DNA of 64,000 nucleotides from NCBI GenBank assembly GCA_022072145.1, contig JAJVIG010000005.1:248001-312000 (forward strand). Direction: 5' to 3'. Below, piece by piece: positions 11,777-42,583 of this stretch (its first letter is position 1; the number at the start of each line of letters is the position of its first letter). The position numbers and the translations under genes were made by a program. Below the pieces are notes generated by a model. It had not been told where the DNA came from. It was given only the letters and a program-made list of their open reading frames with translations, and ran no database searches. Source of the stretch: Pseudomonadales bacterium. GTDB taxonomy: Bacteria; Pseudomonadota; Gammaproteobacteria; Pseudomonadales; UBA5518.

Positions 11777-13816
11777 TCAGAGCAGCGGGGCGATCACGAG
11801 ACTCACGATCGCCATCACGTTGATCAGGATGTTCATCGACGGGCCGGAGGTGTCCTTGAACGGATCGCCCACGGTGTCGCCGACCACGGTCGCGGCGTGC
11901 ACCGGTGAACGCTTGCCGCCGTAGTGGCCCTTCTCGACGTGCTTCTTGGCATTGTCCCACGCGCCGCCCGCGTTCGACATCGTCAGCGCGAGCAGCACGC
12001 AGCCCAGGAGGCCGCCGCCCAGCGCACCGCCGAGCGCCTCGGCGCCGATGCCGAAGCCCACCAGCGGCGGCGTGATCACGGCGATCAGTCCGGGCAGCAG
12101 CATGCGTCGCAGCGCCGCCGAGGTCGCGATGTCGACGCACTTGGCGGTGTCCGGGTCCGCCGTGCCTTCCATCAGGCCCGGTATCTCGCGGAACTGGCGC
12201 CGGATCTCGACGATCATTTCCATCGCCGCGTCGCCGACTGCGGTCATGGTGATCGAGGCGATCAGGAAGGGAATGATGCCGCCGATGAACATCCCTACCA
12301 GTACCTCGGGGTTGTTGATCGACAGGTTCACGGCGCCGGCGCCGGTTTTCGCCCAGTGCGCATCCACGGTCTCGACGTAGGCGGCGATGATCGCGAGCGC
12401 GGCGAGTGCCGCCGCCCCGATCGCGAAGCCCTTGCCGATCGCGGCAGTGGTGTTGCCCAGCGCGTCCAGTGAATCGGTGATGTCGCGCGTTTCCTTGCCG
12501 AGTCCGGCCATCTCGGCGATGCCACCGGCGTTGTCGGCCACCGGACCGTAGGCGTCGATCGCCATGGTGATGCCGACCGTGGCCAGCATGCCGACCGCCG
12601 CGATCGCCACGCCGTACAGTCCGGCCATCGAGGTAGAGACGAAGATGATGCCGCTTATTGCAAGCATCGGCACCGTGACCGACTGCATGCCGACCGCAAG
12701 ACCCGTGATCAGCACCGTGGCCGGTCCCGTCTGGCCGGATTCGGCGATGCGCAGCACCGGCTTCGACGAGGTGTAATACTCGGTCACGAGTCCGATCAGG
12801 ATGCCGCCCGCGGCACCGCAGATCACCGACCACCAGACCACCGCATCGATACCGAGCGAACCGATCATGAACCACGCGGCCGCGATGAACAGCAGCGGCG
12901 CGGCGATCGTGCCGCTGCGCAGCGCCACCGCCGGCTGGCTGGCCGACATCAGCCGCACGATCGCGATGCCGATCAGCGAGGCGATCAGTCCGGTCGATGC
13001 CAGCGCGAGCGGCAGGAACATCAGCGCCGCTCGTCCGGCCGTATCATCGAGGCCGGGTGCGAGCTGCGCCACCGAGGTCACGGCCATCGTCGAGGCGATC
13101 GCGATCGAGGCGATCATCGATCCGCAGTACGACTCGAAGATGTCCGATCCCATGCCGGCCACGTCGCCGACGTTGTCGCCCACGTTGTCGGCGATCACCC
13201 CGGGGTTGCGCGGATCGTCCTCGGGGATGCCGGCCTCGAGCTTGCCGACCAGGTCCGAGCCGACGTCGGCGCTCTTGGTGTAGATGCCGCCGCCGACGCG
13301 CGAGAACAGCGCCACCGAGGAGGCGCCCATGCCGAACCCGTGGATCGCGTGCGCGGTTTCCGGGTCGCCGCCGAAGAAGAGGTACAGCGTGCCGAGCCCG
13401 AGCAGTCCGAGCGAGGCCACGCACAGCCCCATGATCGATCCGCCGTAGAACGCCACCGACAGCGCGGCGGCCGCTCCCTGCGTGTGCGCCGCGGTGGTGG
13501 TGCGCACGTTGGCGCGCGTGGCGGCGAACATGCCCAGCCAGCCGGCGAGCGCCGAGCAGACCGCGCCGCAGAGGAAGGCGATCGCGGTGTTCGCGCCGAG
13601 GAAGATCCACAGCAGCGCGAACAGCACGGCCGCGAAGATCGCGAGCGTGCGGTACTCGCGGTACAGGAACACCATCGCACCGAGGTGGATCGCGTCGCCG
13701 ATCTTGCGGACCTTGTCTTCGCCGGCGGGGTAGCGGGTGAGCACCAGATAGATCACGAGGGCGCTGGCGAGTCCCAGCGCACCGAGGACGGGCGGAAGCT
13801 GCTGTATCTGCGGCAT
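11777..13816 (-). CDS. hppA: membrane-bound ion-pumping pyrophosphatase, K+-dependent type
   Basis: A 679-aa integral membrane pyrophosphatase that couples PPi hydrolysis to H+ and/or Na+ export. The PPi-site blocks are intact: [34 protein letters not shown] and the late [10 protein letters not shown]. The stretch [10 protein letters not shown] has alanine where K+-independent enzymes carry lysine, the known mark of the K+-dependent class. Whether it pumps Na+ or H+ cannot be decided by eye. The ATG at 13816 follows AAGGGG, so a longer in-frame extension to 13894 is rejected. uspA and mtfA follow downstream. Confidence 0.95.
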
Positions 13817-14025
13817 GTCGACCCCTTGCTGTGTTGCGGGATGAACCGGAGCCGCCGCGTGTTGTGGTTCTGCGCGGTCGGCGCTGTGGATCATCCGTGC
13901 CGATCGGCCCCTGGCGGGCGATGACTCACGGCAGCGGAACTACAGAGCCGTCCTGATGGTAGTCGACATTCGCCGAAACGCTCAAGCCCGTTGACCAACG
14001 GCCGCTGGCAGCGGCAGGTCGAGGT

Positions 14026-14910
14026 TCAGACGAGGTATACCGGATCGCCGACCTGCAGCACTGCCTCGCCCTCCACGGTGGCGTAGATCCCGAGGTGGCG
14101 TGCCAGCAACTCGACGATCGCACGTGTCATCGGCGGTTCGGCCGCCAGGCCCAGTTGCGGCTGCGCGCGCGAGGGAATGGCGCAGCGGATCGTGCGCCCG
14201 CGCGGCCTGACGGTCAGCGCACCGATGCGCAGTTCCCGCCCGACCAGCGCGAACTCCGGCACCGGCTGCGCGGGATCCACGAACTCCAGCACGAGGTTGG
14301 GCCGAAAGCGCTCGACGCGCGCATCGACGCCGCGGCTTGCGCCGAGGTGTGCCAGTGCCTGCGTGCTCAGCAGGTGCAGCGGGAAGATGTCGAAGAAGGT
14401 CCCCGGCGGCGTCATGTATTCGGCCATCACCAGCAGCATGTCCCCGGGGGTCTGCGAGAAGTCGAGCTCGCCCTCGTCGGGCAGGCGGTTCAGGTCGCGT
14501 TCGACCTCCGCGAGCTCGAGCTGGCGCCGATGGCGGTAGAACTCGCGCTCGCTGGCCGCGCGCAGCGGCTCTAGCGTGCATTGCCGTCCGAGCGCGGCAC
14601 CGAGCCCGGCGTCGCTCTCCGGCGTGCGTGACGCCAGTTCCGTGCCGTCGGGACAGCGCACCAGCACCTCCGGCACTGCGCTGCCGGTCACGCCCGGGGC
14701 GCACTCCCCGCCGCCGGCGAAACGCGCCGTGAACTCCAGCAGCCGCGGCCACTGGCGGGCGCTCCTGATCTCGCCCGCGGCATCGCACACCGCCCACACG
14801 CGGTCGCCGGCCAGGCCGCCTGGGCCCACGCGACAGCGTGGCAGGGCTTCGCCGCCCATGCTCTTGACGGGGTAGCGGCGGATCCCGACGACGTGGGCGA
14901 TCGCTTGCAT
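14026..14910 (-). CDS. MOSC domain-containing protein (YcbX-like)
   Basis: A 294-aa protein with the MOSC N-terminal beta-barrel (VVGIRRYPVKSMGGEAL, residues 7-23; GLAGDRVWAVCD, 33-44) followed by the MOSC domain, which binds sulfur-carrying molybdenum cofactor. A cysteine near residue 222 (TIRCAIPSR) is in the place of the family's catalytic Cys. YcbX-like proteins reduce N-hydroxylated bases. The window encodes a molybdopterin enzyme elsewhere, but there is no evidence for a direct link. The gene is monocistronic. Confidence 0.85.
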   Translation of the reverse strand: MQAIAHVVGIRRYPVKSMGGEALPRCRVGPGGLAGDRVWAVCDAAGEIRSARQWPRLLEFTARFAGGGECAPGVTGSAVPEVLVRCPDGTELASRTPESDAGLGAALGRQCTLEPLRAASEREFYRHRRQLELAEVERDLNRLPDEGELDFSQTPGDMLLVMAEYMTPPGTFFDIFPLHLLSTQALAHLGASRGVDARVERFRPNLVLEFVDPAQPVPEFALVGRELRIGALTVRPRGRTIRCAIPSRAQPQLGLAAEPPMTRAIVELLARHLGIYATVEGEAVLQVGDPVYLV

Positions 14911-35608: not shown

Positions 35609-37161
35609 CCGCGCAGTGCTTCGGCGAACAGCGGGCTGACGCGCTTCGTCCACGGCGCGGCGCGTTCGATCTGCGCCGCCAGCCGGATCAGCGTCTTCTC
35701 GTCACCGTAGCGCGCCGCGAAGTGCGTGCCCACCGGAATACCGGCCGCGTTCAGCGTGAGCGGCAGCGTGATCGCCGGCTGCCCGGTGCAGTTGCAGATC
35801 GCGCTGAAATCGCTGTAGCCGAGCGCGTCGCGGTAGAAGACGTCGCGCTCCATCGTCAGCACCACGTCGTCGACCTTCCACGGCGCGCGCGCCGCCATCG
35901 GCATCAGCAGCACGTCGATGTCCTGCATGAAGCGGCTCATCGCGAAGCCGAGCCGCTGCACCGCCTGGCGCGCGGCCTCGTAGTCGAGCGCGCTGATCGA
36001 GCCGCCCTGCTGGTAGAAGCCGTAGACGATGGGCTCCAGATCATCGGGCCCCGGCTCGCGGCCGAGTTCGCGCGCGCGTTCGCGGATCGCCGAACACACG
36101 CCCACGAAGGACAGCACCCCGAAGGCATCCATGTAGCGCTGGAAGTCGGGCGGGAGTTCGGCATCGAACACCTCGTGGCCCAGCGAGCCGAGCAGCGTGC
36201 GCGCGTTCGCGATCGCGTCGAGGTTGTCCTGGTGCACCGCATTGCCTAGCGGCGAGGCGGTGATCACGGCCACGCGCAGCCGTCCGGGCTCGCGCTGCAG
36301 CTCGCTCAGGTAGCTGTCTTCGGGCGCCGGCGGCCAGTACGCCGCACCCGGCTCCGCGCCCTGGCTCAGGTCCAGCAGCAGCGCGGTATCACGTACCGTG
36401 CGCGAGACCACGTGCCCGCACGACAGCCCCGACCAGCCCTCGCTCTTGTCCGGCCCCAGCGGGGTGCGCGCGCGTGTGGGTTTCAGGCCGACCAGGCCGC
36501 ACATCGCGGCCGGGAAACGGATCGAACCGCCGCCGTCGGTGGCGTGTGCCACCGGCGCGATGCCGGCCGCCACCGCCGCCGCCGAGCCGCCCGAGCTGCC
36601 GCCGGCCGAGTACTCGAGGTTCCACGGGTTGCGCGTCTTGCCCCACAGCGAGGACACCGTGTTCGGGATCTGGCCGAACTCCGGCGAGGTGGCCTTGCCG
36701 AAGATGCTGAGCCCCGCCGCCTGGTAACGGCGCACCACGGTGCTGGTGTGGGGCGCCACGCGGTCACGGAAGAAGCGCGAGCCGTTGGTGGTCACGGTGC
36801 CTTCGATGTAGACCCCGAGGTCCTTCAGCAGGAACGGCACGCCGGCGAGCGGTGCGTCCGCCGGGAGGGTCTTCAGCGCCGCGCGCGCCTCGTCGTAATG
36901 CTTCAGGCACACGGCGTTGATGCGCGCGTTCACGGCCTCGGTGCGCGCGATCGCGAGCTCGAGCAGTTCGGCCGCGGAAACGGTGCCGCGGCGTACCAGC
37001 CCGGCCAGCCCGATCGCGTCGTACGCGAGGTAATCGCGCAGCGCCATCGTCGAGGTGCCTGCCGCCGCCGCGCCGGGCGGCATCAGCACCGCGGCGGCGG
37101 CGACGGTGGCCGCACCGTTGACGAATTCGCGGCGGCTGAGGGTCTTCTGTTGTTCGGGCAT
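35605..37161 (-). CDS. amidase signature family protein, Tat-exported
   Basis: A 518-aa amidase. A Tat signal (SRREFVNG at residues 9-16, then an Ala-rich hydrophobic run) directs it to the periplasm. The catalytic Ser-cisSer-Lys triad is visible: Lys in PFLLKDLG, the cis-Ser and nucleophile in GGSSGGSAAAVAAGIAP and DGGGSIRFPA. It hydrolyses an amide or related bond and the substrate is unknown. It is the first gene of the operon with the lysoplasmalogenase-like and IMPase-like proteins, with GTGA overlap to the next gene. Confidence 0.93.
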   Translation of the reverse strand: MPEQQKTLSRREFVNGAATVAAAAVLMPPGAAAAGTSTMALRDYLAYDAIGLAGLVRRGTVSAAELLELAIARTEAVNARINAVCLKHYDEARAALKTLPADAPLAGVPFLLKDLGVYIEGTVTTNGSRFFRDRVAPHTSTVVRRYQAAGLSIFGKATSPEFGQIPNTVSSLWGKTRNPWNLEYSAGGSSGGSAAAVAAGIAPVAHATDGGGSIRFPAAMCGLVGLKPTRARTPLGPDKSEGWSGLSCGHVVSRTVRDTALLLDLSQGAEPGAAYWPPAPEDSYLSELQREPGRLRVAVITASPLGNAVHQDNLDAIANARTLLGSLGHEVFDAELPPDFQRYMDAFGVLSFVGVCSAIRERARELGREPGPDDLEPIVYGFYQQGGSISALDYEAARQAVQRLGFAMSRFMQDIDVLLMPMAARAPWKVDDVVLTMERDVFYRDALGYSDFSAICNCTGQPAITLPLTLNAAGIPVGTHFAARYGDEKTLIRLAAQIERAAPWTKRVSPLFAEALRG

Positions 37162-37269
37162 CGTGCTCTCCGGAGTCCTGGCGGTGAAAGGCGCGTTCGC
37201 GGCCGGCGGCCGCGAGGCGGATGGGGTGAATGATGCCCCAGACGGCCGGGGCCGGTCACGCCCGGGCTG

Positions 37270-37863
37270 CTACGCGCGTGCGGCAGGCAGCGGACGGCGC
37301 GTGACCAGCGTGGCGAACGCGAAGCGCTGCCCGTCCGCGTCGGTGCGAATCTCCTCCACGCACTGCAGCACCTCGAGCCCGGGCAGCAGCTTCACCAGCT
37401 CGCCGGGCGCCACCCGATGCGTCGCACCCCGCGGGCCGGCGACTTCCTCGGTGGTGCGCAGGTGCTGCTGGCAGATGAACACCCCGCCCGGCGCCAGCAG
37501 CGCCGGCACCGCGCGCGTGATCGCGGCGTTCGCGAAATGCAGCTGCATCACCAGCTGGTAGGGCCCGGGCAGCGGCAGGCCGGCGTCGAGGTCGTGCTCG
37601 ATCCAGTTCACCGCAACGCCAGCCGCCGCGGCGGCCCCTCGGGCCTGCGCCAGCGCGACAGCGGAGATGTCGAGCGCATCGACCGCGAAGCCGCACGAGG
37701 CCACGAAGATCGCATTGCGCCCCGCGCCGCAGGCGATGTCCAGCGCCCGCCCGCGCGGCGCGGCCGGCACCCAGCGCCGCAGGCACTCGGGCACCTCGCG
37801 CTCGGCGGGTGCCGCGCGTTCCGCGTAGCGCGTGTTCCATTTCTCGCGGTCGTGCAGGGACAT
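37270..37863 (-). CDS. class I SAM-dependent methyltransferase (TehB-like)
   Basis: A 197-aa Rossmann-type methyltransferase. It begins with the TehB/Ubie-like REKWNTRYAER. Motif I is ALDIACGAGRNAIF (residues about 40-53) and motif II ALDISAVALAQAR. It resembles the small tellurite-resistance-type methyltransferases, but the substrate cannot be inferred. ATG 37863 begins the conserved N-terminus; an upstream in-frame extension is Pro-rich and looks non-coding. The gene stands alone. Confidence 0.88.
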   Translation of the reverse strand: MSLHDREKWNTRYAERAAPAEREVPECLRRWVPAAPRGRALDIACGAGRNAIFVASCGFAVDALDISAVALAQARGAAAAAGVAVNWIEHDLDAGLPLPGPYQLVMQLHFANAAITRAVPALLAPGGVFICQQHLRTTEEVAGPRGATHRVAPGELVKLLPGLEVLQCVEEIRTDADGQRFAFATLVTRRPLPAARA

Positions 37864-37928
37864 GGGGTGGTCCTGTGGGGAGAGCGGTGAACTATAGCGT
37901 GGGGGTGGGGTGGGTGGCGTCCTCCCGG

Positions 37929-37970
37929 ATGAAGCAGGTCGGCTTCTCGGATGCGGAGTTCGCGGCGTAA
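37929..37970 (+). pseudogene. scrap of an IS5-family transposase N-terminus
   Basis: ATG AAG CAG starts a 13-residue reading frame, MKQVGFSDAEFAA, ending in TAA. IS5-family transposases commonly begin MKQxxFADAEYAxKRK, so this looks like the first 13 codons of such a gene cut off just before the next conserved Lys. No further transposase or terminal repeat is visible. The 248-bp gap to the antitoxin gene holds nothing else that I can call a gene. Confidence 0.4.
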
Positions 37971-38053
37971 GCCGGCTGCATTGCAACTGAGCGAAAAGCG
38001 GTGCCAACCATCCTGACGCGGCGAGGTGTCAGGCGCATCGAGTTTTCGAACAA

Positions 38054-38093
38054 TTGCTCCAGTGGACCTTTCGGTGCTACCTTGGTGTCACCA
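38054..38093 (+). promoter_or_regulatory. candidate promoter and operator of the first toxin-antitoxin pair
   Basis: TTGCTC (38054-38059), 18-bp spacer and TACCTT (38078-38083) form a weak promoter. The perfect 11-bp palindrome TGGTG-T-CACCA (38083-38093) follows at once. An antitoxin binding there would repress its own operon, as is usual for ribbon-helix-helix antitoxins. Confidence 0.4.
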
Positions 38094-38111
38094 TCTGCGG
38101 AGTGCACAGAC

Positions 38112-38396
38112 ATGTCGACTACCTCGCTGAAGCTTCCTGAAGAGCTGAAGCAACTCGCCGCAACGGCGGCAAGACAGCAGGGCGTTACACTGCATGCGTT
38201 CATGGTCGATGCCATTCGCGCCGCCGCCACCAATGCGGAGCGGCGGGCACAGTTCGTTGCCGACGCAGTCGGCGCGAGAAAGGACGCGATGGAATCCGGC
38301 AAGGGGTACGAGGCCGCCGAAGTACATGCGTATCTCCAGGCGCGTGCACAGGGCCGTTCCGCCAGAAAGCCAAGGGCCAAGGCGTGGCGCGCCTGA
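38112..38396 (+). CDS. ribbon-helix-helix antitoxin (CopG/ParD-like)
   Basis: A 94-aa small protein. The N-terminal strand STTSLKLPEELKQLAATAARQ (residues 2-22) is the DNA-binding ribbon-helix-helix of CopG/ParD antitoxins, and the basic, alanine-rich tail (SARKPRAKAWRA) would wrap the toxin. It overlaps the toxin gene by 13 bp. Base composition is more balanced than in the flanking genes, fitting acquisition by transfer. The ATG at 38112 is the conserved start. Confidence 0.85.
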   Translation: MSTTSLKLPEELKQLAATAARQQGVTLHAFMVDAIRAAATNAERRAQFVADAVGARKDAMESGKGYEAAEVHAYLQARAQGRSARKPRAKAWRA

Positions 38397-38680
38397 TTTA
38401 CGCCGAACGAGCGCTTTCCGATCTGGCGCGGCTCGTGGATTTTCTGGTGCAGACTGAACCTGGTGCAGCGATGGAAGCGGTAGACCTCATCACCGAGGCG
38501 GTGCAGGTGCTGGAGAATCATCCGCTGATTGGGCGTTCCGCGGAGCTGGGGTTGCGGGAGCTCGTGATTTCCCGTGGAAAATCCGGTTATATCGCGCTGT
38601 ACAGCTATGAGCCGGAGCAGGACACGGTGCTTCTGCTTTCGGTAAGACATCAACGCGAAGCTGGCTTCGTGCCGCATTGA
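38384..38680 (+). CDS. RelE/ParE family toxin
   Basis: A 98-aa toxin of the RelE/ParE superfamily. MARLIYAERALSDLARLVDFL at the start, the central ENHPLIGRSAELGLRELVI and the C-terminal VLLLSVRHQREAGF match ParE-type members, which poison gyrase, or RelE-like RNases. GTG start at 38384, inside the end of the antitoxin gene. The antitoxin-toxin order is the usual one. Confidence 0.88.
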   Translation: MARLIYAERALSDLARLVDFLVQTEPGAAMEAVDLITEAVQVLENHPLIGRSAELGLRELVISRGKSGYIALYSYEPEQDTVLLLSVRHQREAGFVPH

Positions 38681-38811
38681 CCCTCACTCTGCCTCTGACC
38701 GCTGAGACGTGGAACTCATGAGACAATGCCCATGACGCGACCATTGGCGCATCATGGCGAACGGCCTTCTATACAGCGTTGGGCGTCAATCGCAGCGTCG
38801 TCTTTTTTGCG

Positions 38812-38840
38812 TTGCATTTCACTATTTATGTAGATACACT
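38812..38840 (+). promoter_or_regulatory. brnT promoter inside the cassette
   Basis: TTGCAT (38812-38817), 17-bp spacer and TACACT (38835-38840). The small palindrome TGTAGATACA (38830-38839) overlaps the -10 hexamer and could be the BrnA operator. Transcription is expected at about 38847, the position of the GTG codon, so the mRNA may be leaderless. Confidence 0.65.
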
Positions 38841-38846
38841 AACTTA

Positions 38847-39122
38847 GTGGCAATAAGCTACGATCCGATAAAGCGTGAAGCAGCGCTTGCGACTCGAGGC
38901 TTGGACTTCGAGGATGCCCAGCATGTCTTCGACGGCCCCAACTTCGAAGTCGAAGATGTGCGCAAGGACTACGGCGAAAGACGATTCATCTGCTTCGGCA
39001 TGCTCAGTGACCGTATGGTTGTTGTCGGTTACACGCCGCGTGGCGCGGATCGCCATGTATTTAGCATGAGGAAAGCAAATGACCGCGAGAAAGCGCGTAT
39101 CGCGCCACTCCTTGGGCTCTGA
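38847..39122 (+). CDS. brnT: BrnT family toxin
   Basis: A 91-aa RelE-fold ribonuclease toxin. It matches the BrnT pattern: an opening ISYDPIKREAALATRGLDFEDAQHVFDG, then GERRFICFGMLSDRMVVVGYTPRG, and the C-terminal FSMRKANDREKAR. GTG at 38847 is chosen because it begins the conserved domain and sits exactly at the expected transcription start; an in-frame ATG lies 93 bp upstream, outside the cassette promoter. The brnA gene starts inside its 3' end (44-bp overlap). It is lower in GC than its surroundings. Confidence 0.88.
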   Translation: MAISYDPIKREAALATRGLDFEDAQHVFDGPNFEVEDVRKDYGERRFICFGMLSDRMVVVGYTPRGADRHVFSMRKANDREKARIAPLLGL

Positions 39123-39360
39123 CCTCGCCCGTGTCGCGTCCCACGTGATTCAGCCGGAAGAGTATGAAGAGCTTCCGGAGCTGACAGACGAGATGCTTGC
39201 CCGTGGCAAGGTCAATAGAGGTGGACGTCCACGTTCGGCGAATCCGAAGCGGCTCATCTCTATCCGTCTGACCGAAGACGTAATTGAACGTTGGCGCGCC
39301 ACAGGGCCAGGGTGGCAGACTCGAATGGCTGAAAAGCTTACCAAGTCTGCACCGAAGTGA
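39079..39360 (+). CDS. brnA: BrnA family antitoxin
   Basis: A 93-aa antitoxin that neutralises BrnT. It shows the BrnA layout: ELPELTDEMLARGKVNRGGRPRS in the middle and the C-terminal ribbon-helix-helix KRLISIRLTEDVIERWRATGPGWQTRMAEKL. BrnA binds DNA and represses the brnTA promoter in characterised systems. Its stop codon is directly followed by the attC-like site (39362), which leaves no spare sequence, as in many integron cassettes. Confidence 0.9.
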   Translation: MTARKRVSRHSLGSDLARVASHVIQPEEYEELPELTDEMLARGKVNRGGRPRSANPKRLISIRLTEDVIERWRATGPGWQTRMAEKLTKSAPK

Positions 39361-39361
39361 C

Positions 39362-39439
39362 GCCCAACCAGCGGATCCAGCCGACGTCCGTTTCGTCGCG
39401 TCGCTCCTCGCCGGCCGCGGCTGATCCTTGTCGTTAGAT
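39362..39439 (+). repeat. attC-like recombination site
   Basis: A 78-bp site with R'' GCCCAAC (39362-39368), L'' GGATCCAGCCG (39373-39383), L' CGGCTGATCC (39418-39427) and R' GTTAGAT (39433-39439). L' pairs with L'' with one extrahelical base, the feature that lets the integron integrase choose the strand. R'' fits RYYYAAC and R' fits GTTRRRY. Confidence 0.7.
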
Positions 39440-39463
39440 TCACCGGAGGCAATCCGTGTACAC

Positions 39464-39502
39464 CTGCGGCAGTATGTGCAAAATTTGCACATGCTGCCGC
39501 AG
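39464..39502. repeat. 39-bp near-perfect palindrome
   Basis: CTGCGGCAG, T, ATGTGCAAA, central A, TTTGCACAT, G, CTGCCGCAG. Only one pair (T/G) breaks the symmetry. It lies just beyond the attC-like site and 65 bp past the end of the ybaN-like gene, so it may be a dimer-binding site, an element end, or a terminator hairpin for the leftward operon. Confidence 0.6.
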
Positions 39503-39566
39503 ACGGGGCCGTGTCAGGAGAGAGTTGGCCGGAGGTCGTGGTTTGCGTTATACGCAAAATCGACCC

Positions 39567-39968
39567 TCACTCCTCATGCCGGTCCCGTGACGGCACCCGG
39601 TACAGCCACGTCGCGAGCGCCACGCCGAACAGCGCCAGCGCGAGCTGCAGCCAGCGCGGTTCGACGAAGAACACGATCGAGACGGTCAGTGTGGTGCTCA
39701 TCAGCACGATCGCCACGATCTTGGTCCGCCACGGGATGCTGCCGTACTCGTTCCATTCGACGATGATCGGTCCGAACAGCGGGTGCGCGAGCAGCCAGTC
39801 GTGAAAGCGCAGCGAGCCGCGCGCGAAGCAGGCCGCCGCGAGCAGCACGAACGGCGTGGTCGGCAGCACCGGCAGCACCACGCCGGCGATGCCGAGCCCG
39901 AGCGCGATCACGCCGAGCACGATGAACAGCGCGCGCACGGTGCGCGAGGAATGGAGCCGGTCGCTCAT
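39567..39968 (-). CDS. YbaN family (DUF454) inner-membrane protein
   Basis: A 133-aa membrane protein. DUF454 features are the opening hydrophobic IVLGVIALGLGIAGVVLPVLPTTPF, then AAACFARGSLRFHDWLL.HPLFGPII and a second hydrophobic pair near the end. Its biochemical role is unknown. The start overlaps the yaeQ stop (ATGA). It is the last gene of the GNAT-yaeQ-ybaN operon read leftward. Confidence 0.9.
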   Translation of the reverse strand: MSDRLHSSRTVRALFIVLGVIALGLGIAGVVLPVLPTTPFVLLAAACFARGSLRFHDWLLAHPLFGPIIVEWNEYGSIPWRTKIVAIVLMSTTLTVSIVFFVEPRWLQLALALFGVALATWLYRVPSRDRHEE

Positions 39969-40531
39969 CGCGATGCGCCGTCCGCGTGTCCGCTCGCCTG
40001 CAGCACTTCGGGTTCGATCGCCAGCGCGCGGCTCGCGTCGCTCAGGTAGACCTGCCGGTCCTGGATGGTGCACTGCAGGCGCATGTTGCGCTCGGCGAAC
40101 GCCGCGAGCGCGCGCGTCGTCTCGCCGGGCAGCGCGAGCACCTCGAGTTGCGGCAGCCGCGCCAGTGCCTCGCGGTTGCGCTCCCACCAGACCTCGATCG
40201 CGCGTGCGCCGTAGGCCAGCACCACCACGCGTTCGGCGCGCCCGGCGGCGCGGCGCAGCCGCCGCTCCTCGGGCAGGCCCACGTCGAGCCACAGGCGGAT
40301 CGCGCCGGTGTCGTCCTTCAGCGAGAGGTCGGGTTCCTCGTCGGCGGATATGCCGCGGCCGAATTCCAGCCTGTGGTCGGCATGCAGCGCGAACGCGAGC
40401 ACACGCACCATCAGCCGCTCCCCGGTTTCCGAGGGGTGGCGCGCCAGCGTCAGCGTGAAGGATTCGTAGATGCCGCGGTCGACGTCGGCCACGTCGAGCT
40501 CGAGGCGGTGGATGGTGGATTTCAGTGCCAT
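39965..40531 (-). CDS. yaeQ: YaeQ family protein
   Basis: A 188-aa protein of the YaeQ family (a PD-(D/E)xK-like fold). It starts MALKSTIHRLELDVADVDRGIY, as family members do, and contains the conserved SETGERLMVRVLAFALHAD and EEPDLSLKDDTGAIRLWLDVG blocks. Its molecular role is not established; it has been linked to haemolysin/transcription suppression in enterics. ATG 40531 is preferred over an upstream codon because the family N-terminus begins there. It is coupled to the YbaN gene. Confidence 0.93.
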   Translation of the reverse strand: MALKSTIHRLELDVADVDRGIYESFTLTLARHPSETGERLMVRVLAFALHADHRLEFGRGISADEEPDLSLKDDTGAIRLWLDVGLPEERRLRRAAGRAERVVVLAYGARAIEVWWERNREALARLPQLEVLALPGETTRALAAFAERNMRLQCTIQDRQVYLSDASRALAIEPEVLQASGHADGASR

Positions 40532-40535
40532 GCGT

Positions 40536-41108
40536 TCAGCGTTCCCGGCGGCAGCGGCTGAGCCGCCACTCGCCGGCCGTGATCGCCCAGCGCTCATGGT
40601 CGCGCCAGCGCCCGTTGATCTTCATGTAGCGCGTGCACAGTCCCTCGTGGCGCAGTCCCAATGAGGCGGCCAGTGCGCGCGAGGCGGTGTTCGCGGGCTG
40701 GATCGCGGCTTCGAGCCGGTTCAGTCCGTGCTCGCGGAATGCCAGCGTGATAACGCGACGCACCGCCTCGCGCATCAGTCCGCGCCCGGCATGGGGGGCG
40801 AAGGCGTAGTACGAGAGCTGCGCGCTCTGGTAGCCACCGCGCAGCACCTCGCCGAGGTTGACCACGCCGGCCAGTGCGTCGTCCTCGACCAGCACCAGGT
40901 GCCCTATGCAGCGCCCGGCCTCGATGCGCTGCAGGTACTCGCGGTAGGCGCTGCGCGTGTCCGGCGGTTCGACCCAGCGCGCGTGCAGCGCGCGGCTGTT
41001 CTCCACTGCCGCCAGGAACGCCCGCGCGTGCGCAGGCTCCGGCGCCGCGAGCTGCAGGGGCGGGCGTGCGGTGCGGGCAGGGCGAAGGCGGCGGGCGGTG
41101 CTGGGCAT
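40536..41108 (-). CDS. GNAT family N-acetyltransferase (RimJ-like)
   Basis: A 190-aa acetyltransferase that transfers acetyl from acetyl-CoA. The acetyl-CoA loop corresponds to YYAFAPHAGRGLMREAVRRV (residues about 103-122) and the distal LNRLEAAIQPANTASRALAASLGLRHEG is typical of RimJ/RimL proteins, which act on N-terminal or side-chain amines. It ends four bases before yaeQ begins, so the three genes form one operon. The substrate is unknown. Confidence 0.9.
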   Translation of the reverse strand: MPSTARRLRPARTARPPLQLAAPEPAHARAFLAAVENSRALHARWVEPPDTRSAYREYLQRIEAGRCIGHLVLVEDDALAGVVNLGEVLRGGYQSAQLSYYAFAPHAGRGLMREAVRRVITLAFREHGLNRLEAAIQPANTASRALAASLGLRHEGLCTRYMKINGRWRDHERWAITAGEWRLSRCRRER

Positions 41109-41206
41109 CGTGGGCGGCGGTTCGGTACGGGTTGCGTGGGCCGGTGCGGGTGCGGCTATGGTAGCGGCGCCGCACGGACGCCGGAAGGCGGGCGGGCGCC
41201 GGGCTC

Positions 41207-41557
41207 TCAGGTCAGCTCGATGCCGTACCGGCGCAGCAGCACCGCAAGCAGCCCGAAGCACGCCCCCGTGATGACCACGCAGGTCAGCAGCGTCGGCCAG
41301 AATCCCAGCCGGGCGAGCAGCGCCGGGAACACCAGGAACATCGGCAGTGTGGGCAGGACGTACCAGAACGTGTACCACGCGTGATTGGCGATCTTCGAGG
41401 GTGGCTGGTGCTCGACATACAGCCAGATCAGCGTGAGCACCGTGACCAGCGGCAGCGCGGCCACCACGGCGCCGATCCGGTCGCTCCTCTTTGCGAGTTC
41501 CGATACGGCAACCACGACGGCGGCGGTGATCAGGTACTTGGTCAGGATCAATGTCAT
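41207..41557 (-). CDS. DUF3147 family membrane protein
   Basis: A 116-aa membrane protein with four hydrophobic segments: LTKYLITAAVVVAVSELAK, AALPLVTVLTLIWLYVE, WYVLPTLPMFLVFPALL and TLLTCVVITGACFGLLAVLL. The pattern and length match DUF3147, a family without a known function. ATG 41557 starts the conserved LTKYLITA. It stands alone, divergent from the HDOD gene. Confidence 0.85.
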   Translation of the reverse strand: MTLILTKYLITAAVVVAVSELAKRSDRIGAVVAALPLVTVLTLIWLYVEHQPPSKIANHAWYTFWYVLPTLPMFLVFPALLARLGFWPTLLTCVVITGACFGLLAVLLRRYGIELT

Positions 41558-41678
41558 GCGAGCGGTGCTCCGGTGGCAGATGCCCGGCGATTGTTGCACG
41601 CGGGGAGTGCCACGGGTGTTCCGCAGCACAGGCCGTCGCGGTGCGCGCGTGTCAGCGCAATCGGCCGGCTCTTGAGTC

Positions 41679-41711
41679 ACGCCCCGCATCGGTCTTATCG
41701 TGGGGCGTTTT
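41679..41711 (+). terminator. hairpin with T-run upstream of the HDOD gene
   Basis: ACGCCCC (41679-41685) pairs with GGGGCGT (41702-41708), followed by TTT. The 16-nt loop is large. It lies 18 bp before the HDOD start, so it may be a weak attenuator or chance; no gene ends there on this strand. Confidence 0.3.
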
Positions 41712-41728
41712 CACGCGGGGCGAGCGGC

Positions 41729-42583
41729 ATGACAGATGATCAACGGCAGGCAGAGTCGATGCTCGATGCGGCGCTCGCCGATCGGCTGGCCGCCGGGACC
41801 ATCACGGTGCCGGTGCTGCCGGCGGTGGCGTGTGCCGTGCTCGCGCTGCTAGCCGACCCGGACGCCGACGGCGCGGCGATCGCCGGCACGATCCGCAACG
41901 ACCCTGCGCTCGCCGGCCACGTGATGCGGGTGGCGAACTCGCCGCTGCTGCGCGGCGGCGCGCCGGTCGTCTCGCTGCAGCAGGCGATCGCGCGGCTCGG
42001 GATCCGCCGTGTCGGCGAGATCGCGCTGGCGGCCTGCCTGGGTCCGCAACTGTTCAAGGCGCCTGCCTATGCGCGGCTGATCGATGCGCTGTGGACGCGT
42101 TCGTTGGCGACGGCGCTGTGGGCGCGCGAGATCGCGCGGCAGCTGCGCTCGAACGTCGAGGTCGCGTTCCTGTGCGGCCTGCTCGCGCGGATCGGGCACC
42201 CGGTGGTGTTGCAGGCGATCCAGGAACTGCTGTCCGGTGGCCGCGAGGCGCCGGACGAGGCGGGCGTGGCGCGCCTGCTCGAGCGCCATGGCGCAGCGGC
42301 GGGCCGACTGCTGGCCGTGGCGTGGCACCTGCCGGAAGCGGTGGCGCAGACGATTGCGTACATCGACGATCGTGCGCGCGCGAGTTCGGCGGCCGATCTG
42401 GTCGCGCTGGTGGCGGTGGCCGATACGTTCCCGGCCGAGCCGGTACCCGACGCGGCGGCCGAGGCGGCGCGGCTGGTGGAGCATCCGGCGATCGAGGCGA
42501 TCGACCTCTACCGTGCCGACGCCGAGGAACTGCTGCAGCGCGCCGACACGGTGCTGCAGACACTGGCGGAGATGCGCGTGTGA
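41729..42583 (+). CDS. HDOD domain-containing protein
   Basis: A 284-aa HDOD (non-catalytic HD-related) protein. The domain covers most of it: VPVLPAVACAVLALLADPDADGAAIAGTI, NDPALAGHVMRVANSPLLRGG and SLQQAIARLGIRRVGEIALAACL. HDOD proteins act in signalling or as partners in chemotaxis and stress regulation, and no output domain is attached. The stop codon overlaps the GTG of the transhydrogenase gene, so it is the first gene of a coupled rightward run. Confidence 0.9.
   Translation: MTDDQRQAESMLDAALADRLAAGTITVPVLPAVACAVLALLADPDADGAAIAGTIRNDPALAGHVMRVANSPLLRGGAPVVSLQQAIARLGIRRVGEIALAACLGPQLFKAPAYARLIDALWTRSLATALWAREIARQLRSNVEVAFLCGLLARIGHPVVLQAIQELLSGGREAPDEAGVARLLERHGAAAGRLLAVAWHLPEAVAQTIAYIDDRARASSAADLVALVAVADTFPAEPVPDAAAEAARLVEHPAIEAIDLYRADAEELLQRADTVLQTLAEMRV

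Follow-up and report, generated by a model that had tools for sequence, protein, structure and literature searches.

A Lone BrnT/BrnA Integron Cassette, Probably Inserted at an attI-like Chromosomal Site

Results and Discussion

The window analyzed here, a stretch of 64,000 nucleotides (C1:248001-312000 of a 315,252-base contig) from a 3.83-Mb draft genome of 66 contigs, contains a complete BrnT/BrnA integron cassette that stands alone. The cassette spans 655 bp (window 38779-39433) and comprises brnT, brnA, and a 78-nt attC; the attC is authentic, the cassette ends are precise, and both reading frames are intact. The arrangement is most probably a SALIN (a single attC without an integrase) that arose when IntI inserted the cassette into a secondary chromosomal site resembling attI. 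The original prediction of a lone integron cassette holding brnTA is thus borne out by the attC model score, the precise ends, and the Pfam matches of both genes. The features are as follows.

38761-38778, + strand: left flank, attI-like insertion site that ends in G^TT (ACGGCCTTCTATACAGCG), scored with an 18-nt attI matrix
38778-38788, + strand: left core site, G38778^TTGGGC, an 11-bp exact inverse repeat of 39358-39368
38779-39433, + strand: integron gene cassette, with recombination points G38778^T and G39433^T
38818-38846, + strand: candidate brnTA operator/promoter, TTATGTAGATACACTAA..., from alignment with loci L026 and L132; its function is predicted
38847-39122, + strand: brnT, ribonuclease toxin of 91 aa with a GTG start (PF04365)
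39079-39360, + strand: brnA, antitoxin of 93 aa (PF14384)
39362-39439, + strand: attC, 78 nt, from covariance model R1 (55.1 bits) and a structural scan
attC boxes: R'' 39362-39368; L'' 39373-39383; variable part 39384-39417; L' 39418-39427; R' 39433-39439
39434-39440, + strand: right flank, TTAGATT, on the non-cassette side of the right junction

The attC Site and the Cassette Ends

The 3' end of the cassette carries all four attC boxes. As had been proposed, L'' (GGATC-C-AGCCG) pairs with L' (CGGCTGATCC) except for one extrahelical base. This base, C39378 on the top strand and G on the bottom, is at the canonical position and on the canonical side. The original prediction also suggested scoring the site with an attC covariance model. 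The training set of model R1 comprised 24 attC sites, most of which came from other genera's integron loci; the window attC and its near relatives were left out. R1 gives the window site 55.1 bits (E = 8.2e-12), as compared to 9.2 bits for the opposite strand and 16.4 bits for the second-best site in the window. In 0.99 Mb of sequence, drawn mostly from integrase loci, a structural scan found 36 attC sites; the same 0.99 Mb, when reversed, gave none. Rfam returned no match at its gathering thresholds. The attC model detects repeated 56-57 nt matches in three small genomes (G377, G279, and G162), which may be other dyad repeats rather than attC.

Both boundaries of the cassette fall at G^TT. 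The core sites lie where the original prediction placed them (G38778^TTGGGC on the left; R'' = GCCCAAC at 39362-39368 and R' = G39433^TTAGAT on the right). The cassette begins with the inverse complement of R'', and this exact match is longer than first described, extending over 11/11 bp (100%; GTTGGGCGTCA/TGACGCCCAAC). The antitoxin stop codon, described as abutting the attC, is the brnA TGA (39358-39360); it lies inside the right-hand copy of the 11-bp repeat, which closes with R''. Just to the right of the cassette, positions 39464-39502 form a nearly perfect 19-bp inverted repeat.

The BrnT/BrnA Pair

The product of brnT matches BrnT_toxin (PF04365) over its full length at 73 bits (E 2.5e-20), and that of brnA matches BrnA_antitoxin (PF14384) over its full length at 56 bits, both above cut-off. 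The two domains are encoded in one operon. A weak match to a solved toxin chain, 7vd7_A (E 2.3e-4), was obtained for BrnT; PADLOC returned no match for four toxin-antitoxin proteins. By sequence, the pair is a BrnT/BrnA type II system, for which ribonuclease activity and neutralization by BrnA are predicted. Ahead of brnT, within the cassette, lies a palindromic element that recurs in alignment with the brnTA loci L026 and L132; a search for a sigma-70 consensus at this candidate operator/promoter found none. Because the element recurs in both loci, it suggests that the cassette brnTA has a control region of its own.

Locus L132, from another family, offers a parallel for a BrnTA cassette in an array. 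There, a BrnTA with 67% identity lies directly after an attC; it starts with GTTAGATTTCAC and ends with GTGAAATCTAAC (a 12-bp inverse repeat), after which comes a degenerate attC. A ParE-like pair directly precedes this BrnTA. On the minus strand of L132 (1755-1900), an insert with flanking inverted GGGGTCAGGTTCGA repeats interrupts brnT close to its start.

The Left Flank

The sequence immediately before the cassette was compared with a matrix built from the attI sites of 14 integrase-linked loci from other genomes. The motif preceding G^TT scores 7.87 bits, and the genome's own two attI sites score 7.2 and 8.8. In a sample of the same genome, 3/2114 GTT positions reach 7.87, and these include the window site itself and the true attI on contig C37. 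Depending on the background, 0.1-0.45% of GTT positions score as high, with the upper value (about 0.45%) coming from a wider sample in which true attI sites are included. We take this as moderate evidence that the left flank is an attI-like site. No intI, intact or as a trace, was found within 36000-42000, so the flank is not classed as an attI platform. Beyond its last ~18 nt, the flank shows no similarity to the attI regions of the genome. A search with the full R1 model and its filters off found no attC at the left boundary or between the upstream ParE gene and the cassette. Locally, therefore, the site lies outside any recognizable integron, in agreement with the original prediction.

As judged by R1, the window site has the form that defines a SALIN, one attC and no integrase in the vicinity. 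The position of the attC within contig C1 (C1:287362-287439) shows that the site is not the assembly break of a full integron.

Integrase, attI, and attC Elsewhere in the Genome

The original prediction stated that no integrase, attI, or array was present. That holds for the window but not for the genome. Contig C37 encodes a full-length, intact integron integrase (G000:C37:873-1862; 476 bits to TIGR02249, cut-off 265), and on contig C3 the attI region of C37 recurs (220 bp, 81% identity) with cassettes and without intI. The cassette at this copy contains a DUF262-like gene and a second gene, both assigned by eye, and its ends match over 13 bp. Its attC (C3:12352-12429) is 96% identical to that of the window, and these two are the only confident attC sites that R1 detects in the genome at the threshold used, in a search that scored 150/7845 first-look candidates and may have missed weaker sites. 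The cassette had also been described as frozen in place. This does not follow, since the C37 integrase could be supplied in trans. Integrases were searched for in the congeners G001-G005 and none was found; G002 has attC sites.

Several features of these two contigs were observed in passing. Past the cassette at the second attI region on C3 (L278, about 12352-14393), the next attC appears to be interrupted by a gene pair resembling, by eye, IstA/IstB of IS21. On C37, the first cassette of the genome's integron (L027, G000:C37:61-535) has ends that form a near-identical 16-bp inverse repeat, together with a perfect hairpin without an extrahelical base, and the contig stops just beyond it. A cassette at C37:61-535 is suggested by these matching end sequences; the hairpin at C37:61-113 is a weak candidate attC, scoring 11.4 bits and lying on the wrong strand.

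Comparison with Relatives

A search among 56 relatives for an empty version of the site yielded no usable one. Of the congeners that share the outer flanks, G002 is the nearest. Between its amidase-like and DUF454 genes lie two genes that resemble, by eye, acyl-CoA dehydrogenases. In the window genome, this interval holds a methyltransferase, a ParE-type pair, and the BrnTA cassette, and the segment at 37162-39566 (about 37.2-39.5 kb) is absent from G002. In G004, the same two acyl-CoA dehydrogenase-like genes adjoin the amidase-like gene. Because G002 has other genes in place of the whole segment, the history of the segment includes more than one event. A short stretch within the segment (37921-37967), which reads by eye like the start of an IS5-family transposase, is repeated at 95-96% on contig C44 and at the end of contig C19.

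Proposed Origin and Alternatives

In the origin that we favor, a free circular BrnTA cassette would have inserted in one integrase-mediated attC recombination. The target would have been an attI-like secondary chromosomal site, ...TATACAGCG^TTAGATTC..., which before insertion would read TATACAGCGTTAGATTCACC across the junction. The integrase was presumably the IntI of the window genome or of an ancestor. Transcription of brnTA would start from the promoter/operator inside the cassette, in which case no integron promoter would be needed. The cassette may still be excisable whenever IntI is made, and the antitoxin would then be lost.

The same junction could instead be a relic of a former integron, in which the left flank is a true attI and the intI gene and other cassettes were deleted, leaving the first cassette behind. 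The attI score of the flank falls within the range of the genome's two attI sites, and the attI copy on C3, with its cassettes and no intI, shows such a process in the same genome. However, the similarity to those attI regions ends with the last ~18 nt, the surrounding 36000-42000 holds no intI remnant, and a ParE-type toxin gene ends only 98 bp upstream; we therefore regard a relic as possible but unlikely. That ParE-type pair is itself the starting point for another explanation, in which the cassette is a fragment of a longer CALIN whose other attC sites have decayed and the pair is a former cassette. Cassettes often carry type II toxin-antitoxin pairs, and the array in L132 has the ParE-like pair and BrnTA in this very order. 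Yet the full-model search detected no decayed attC in the interval from the ParE gene to the cassette, and the left junction is attI-like rather than attC-like, which makes a CALIN fragment highly improbable. As a second cassette, the upstream pair was rejected, as it has no attC.

The chance that an ordinary brnTA operon merely ends in a terminator-like hairpin that mimics attC is practically negligible. The folding energy of the hairpin, taken alone, is unremarkable (z about -1) and not unusual for its base composition, as such mimicry would have it. Nevertheless, a near-identical attC stands behind an unrelated gene on C3. The R1 E value of 8e-12, the 0 sites in about 1 Mb of reversed sequence, and the 11-bp inverse ends effectively rule out a chance hairpin.

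Relation to Known Systems and to Other Lone Cassettes

BrnT/BrnA cassettes have been published in integrons and CALINs (PMC7370490, PMC8876359, and PMC7923331). In PMC12690207, SALIN denotes a single attC without an integrase and is used with IntegronFinder --calin-threshold 1. The window site agrees with this usage in having one attC and one cassette, no integrase nearby, and an integrase elsewhere in the genome; it differs in that its cassette carries a BrnTA pair and its left flank resembles attI. Cassette insertion at attG or secondary sites is described by Loot et al. 2024 (cited in PMC12444791), and PMC10127599 gives the secondary-site motif as GTTRRRY. Such insertion shares with the window site a precise junction at G^TT outside an integron, whereas the window site is a natural chromosomal case. 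Toxin-antitoxin cassettes of chromosomal integrons (PMC11023631) likewise hold a type II pair with apparently its own control region; unlike them, the window cassette is alone rather than within an array.

Stray cassettes are a known and fairly common kind, of which the window cassette is a well-formed example. We surveyed 77 attC loci, 16 of which have just one attC within a span of about 8 kb or more. Besides the C3 cassette, nine single-attC loci have sharp matching ends. Two of these (L203 and L235) have an integrase nearby; in the other seven, with no integrase within about 4 kb, no toxin-antitoxin family was recognizable, and several of their proteins belong to no family at all. Because these seven comparable cassettes have no recognizable toxin-antitoxin genes, lone cassettes do not require a toxin to persist. 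The window cassette itself may be kept by its toxin, as the original prediction proposed.

A cassette outside an integron, in a genome that has an integrase, allows tests of dispersal in trans and of stabilization by toxin-antitoxin pairs. We give little weight to the speculation that a single IntI, acting in trans on intI-less attI-like sites dispersed over the chromosome, lets this lineage carry cassettes beyond the integron; in the window genome, two landing sites of this sort would be the attI copy on C3 and the site in the window. In G094 (L231), L241, and G136 (L243), too, a lone cassette occupies an attI-like site that has no intI. The last of these (G136:C1:2181012) sits at a second copy of its genome's attI (58 bp, 91%), again without intI.
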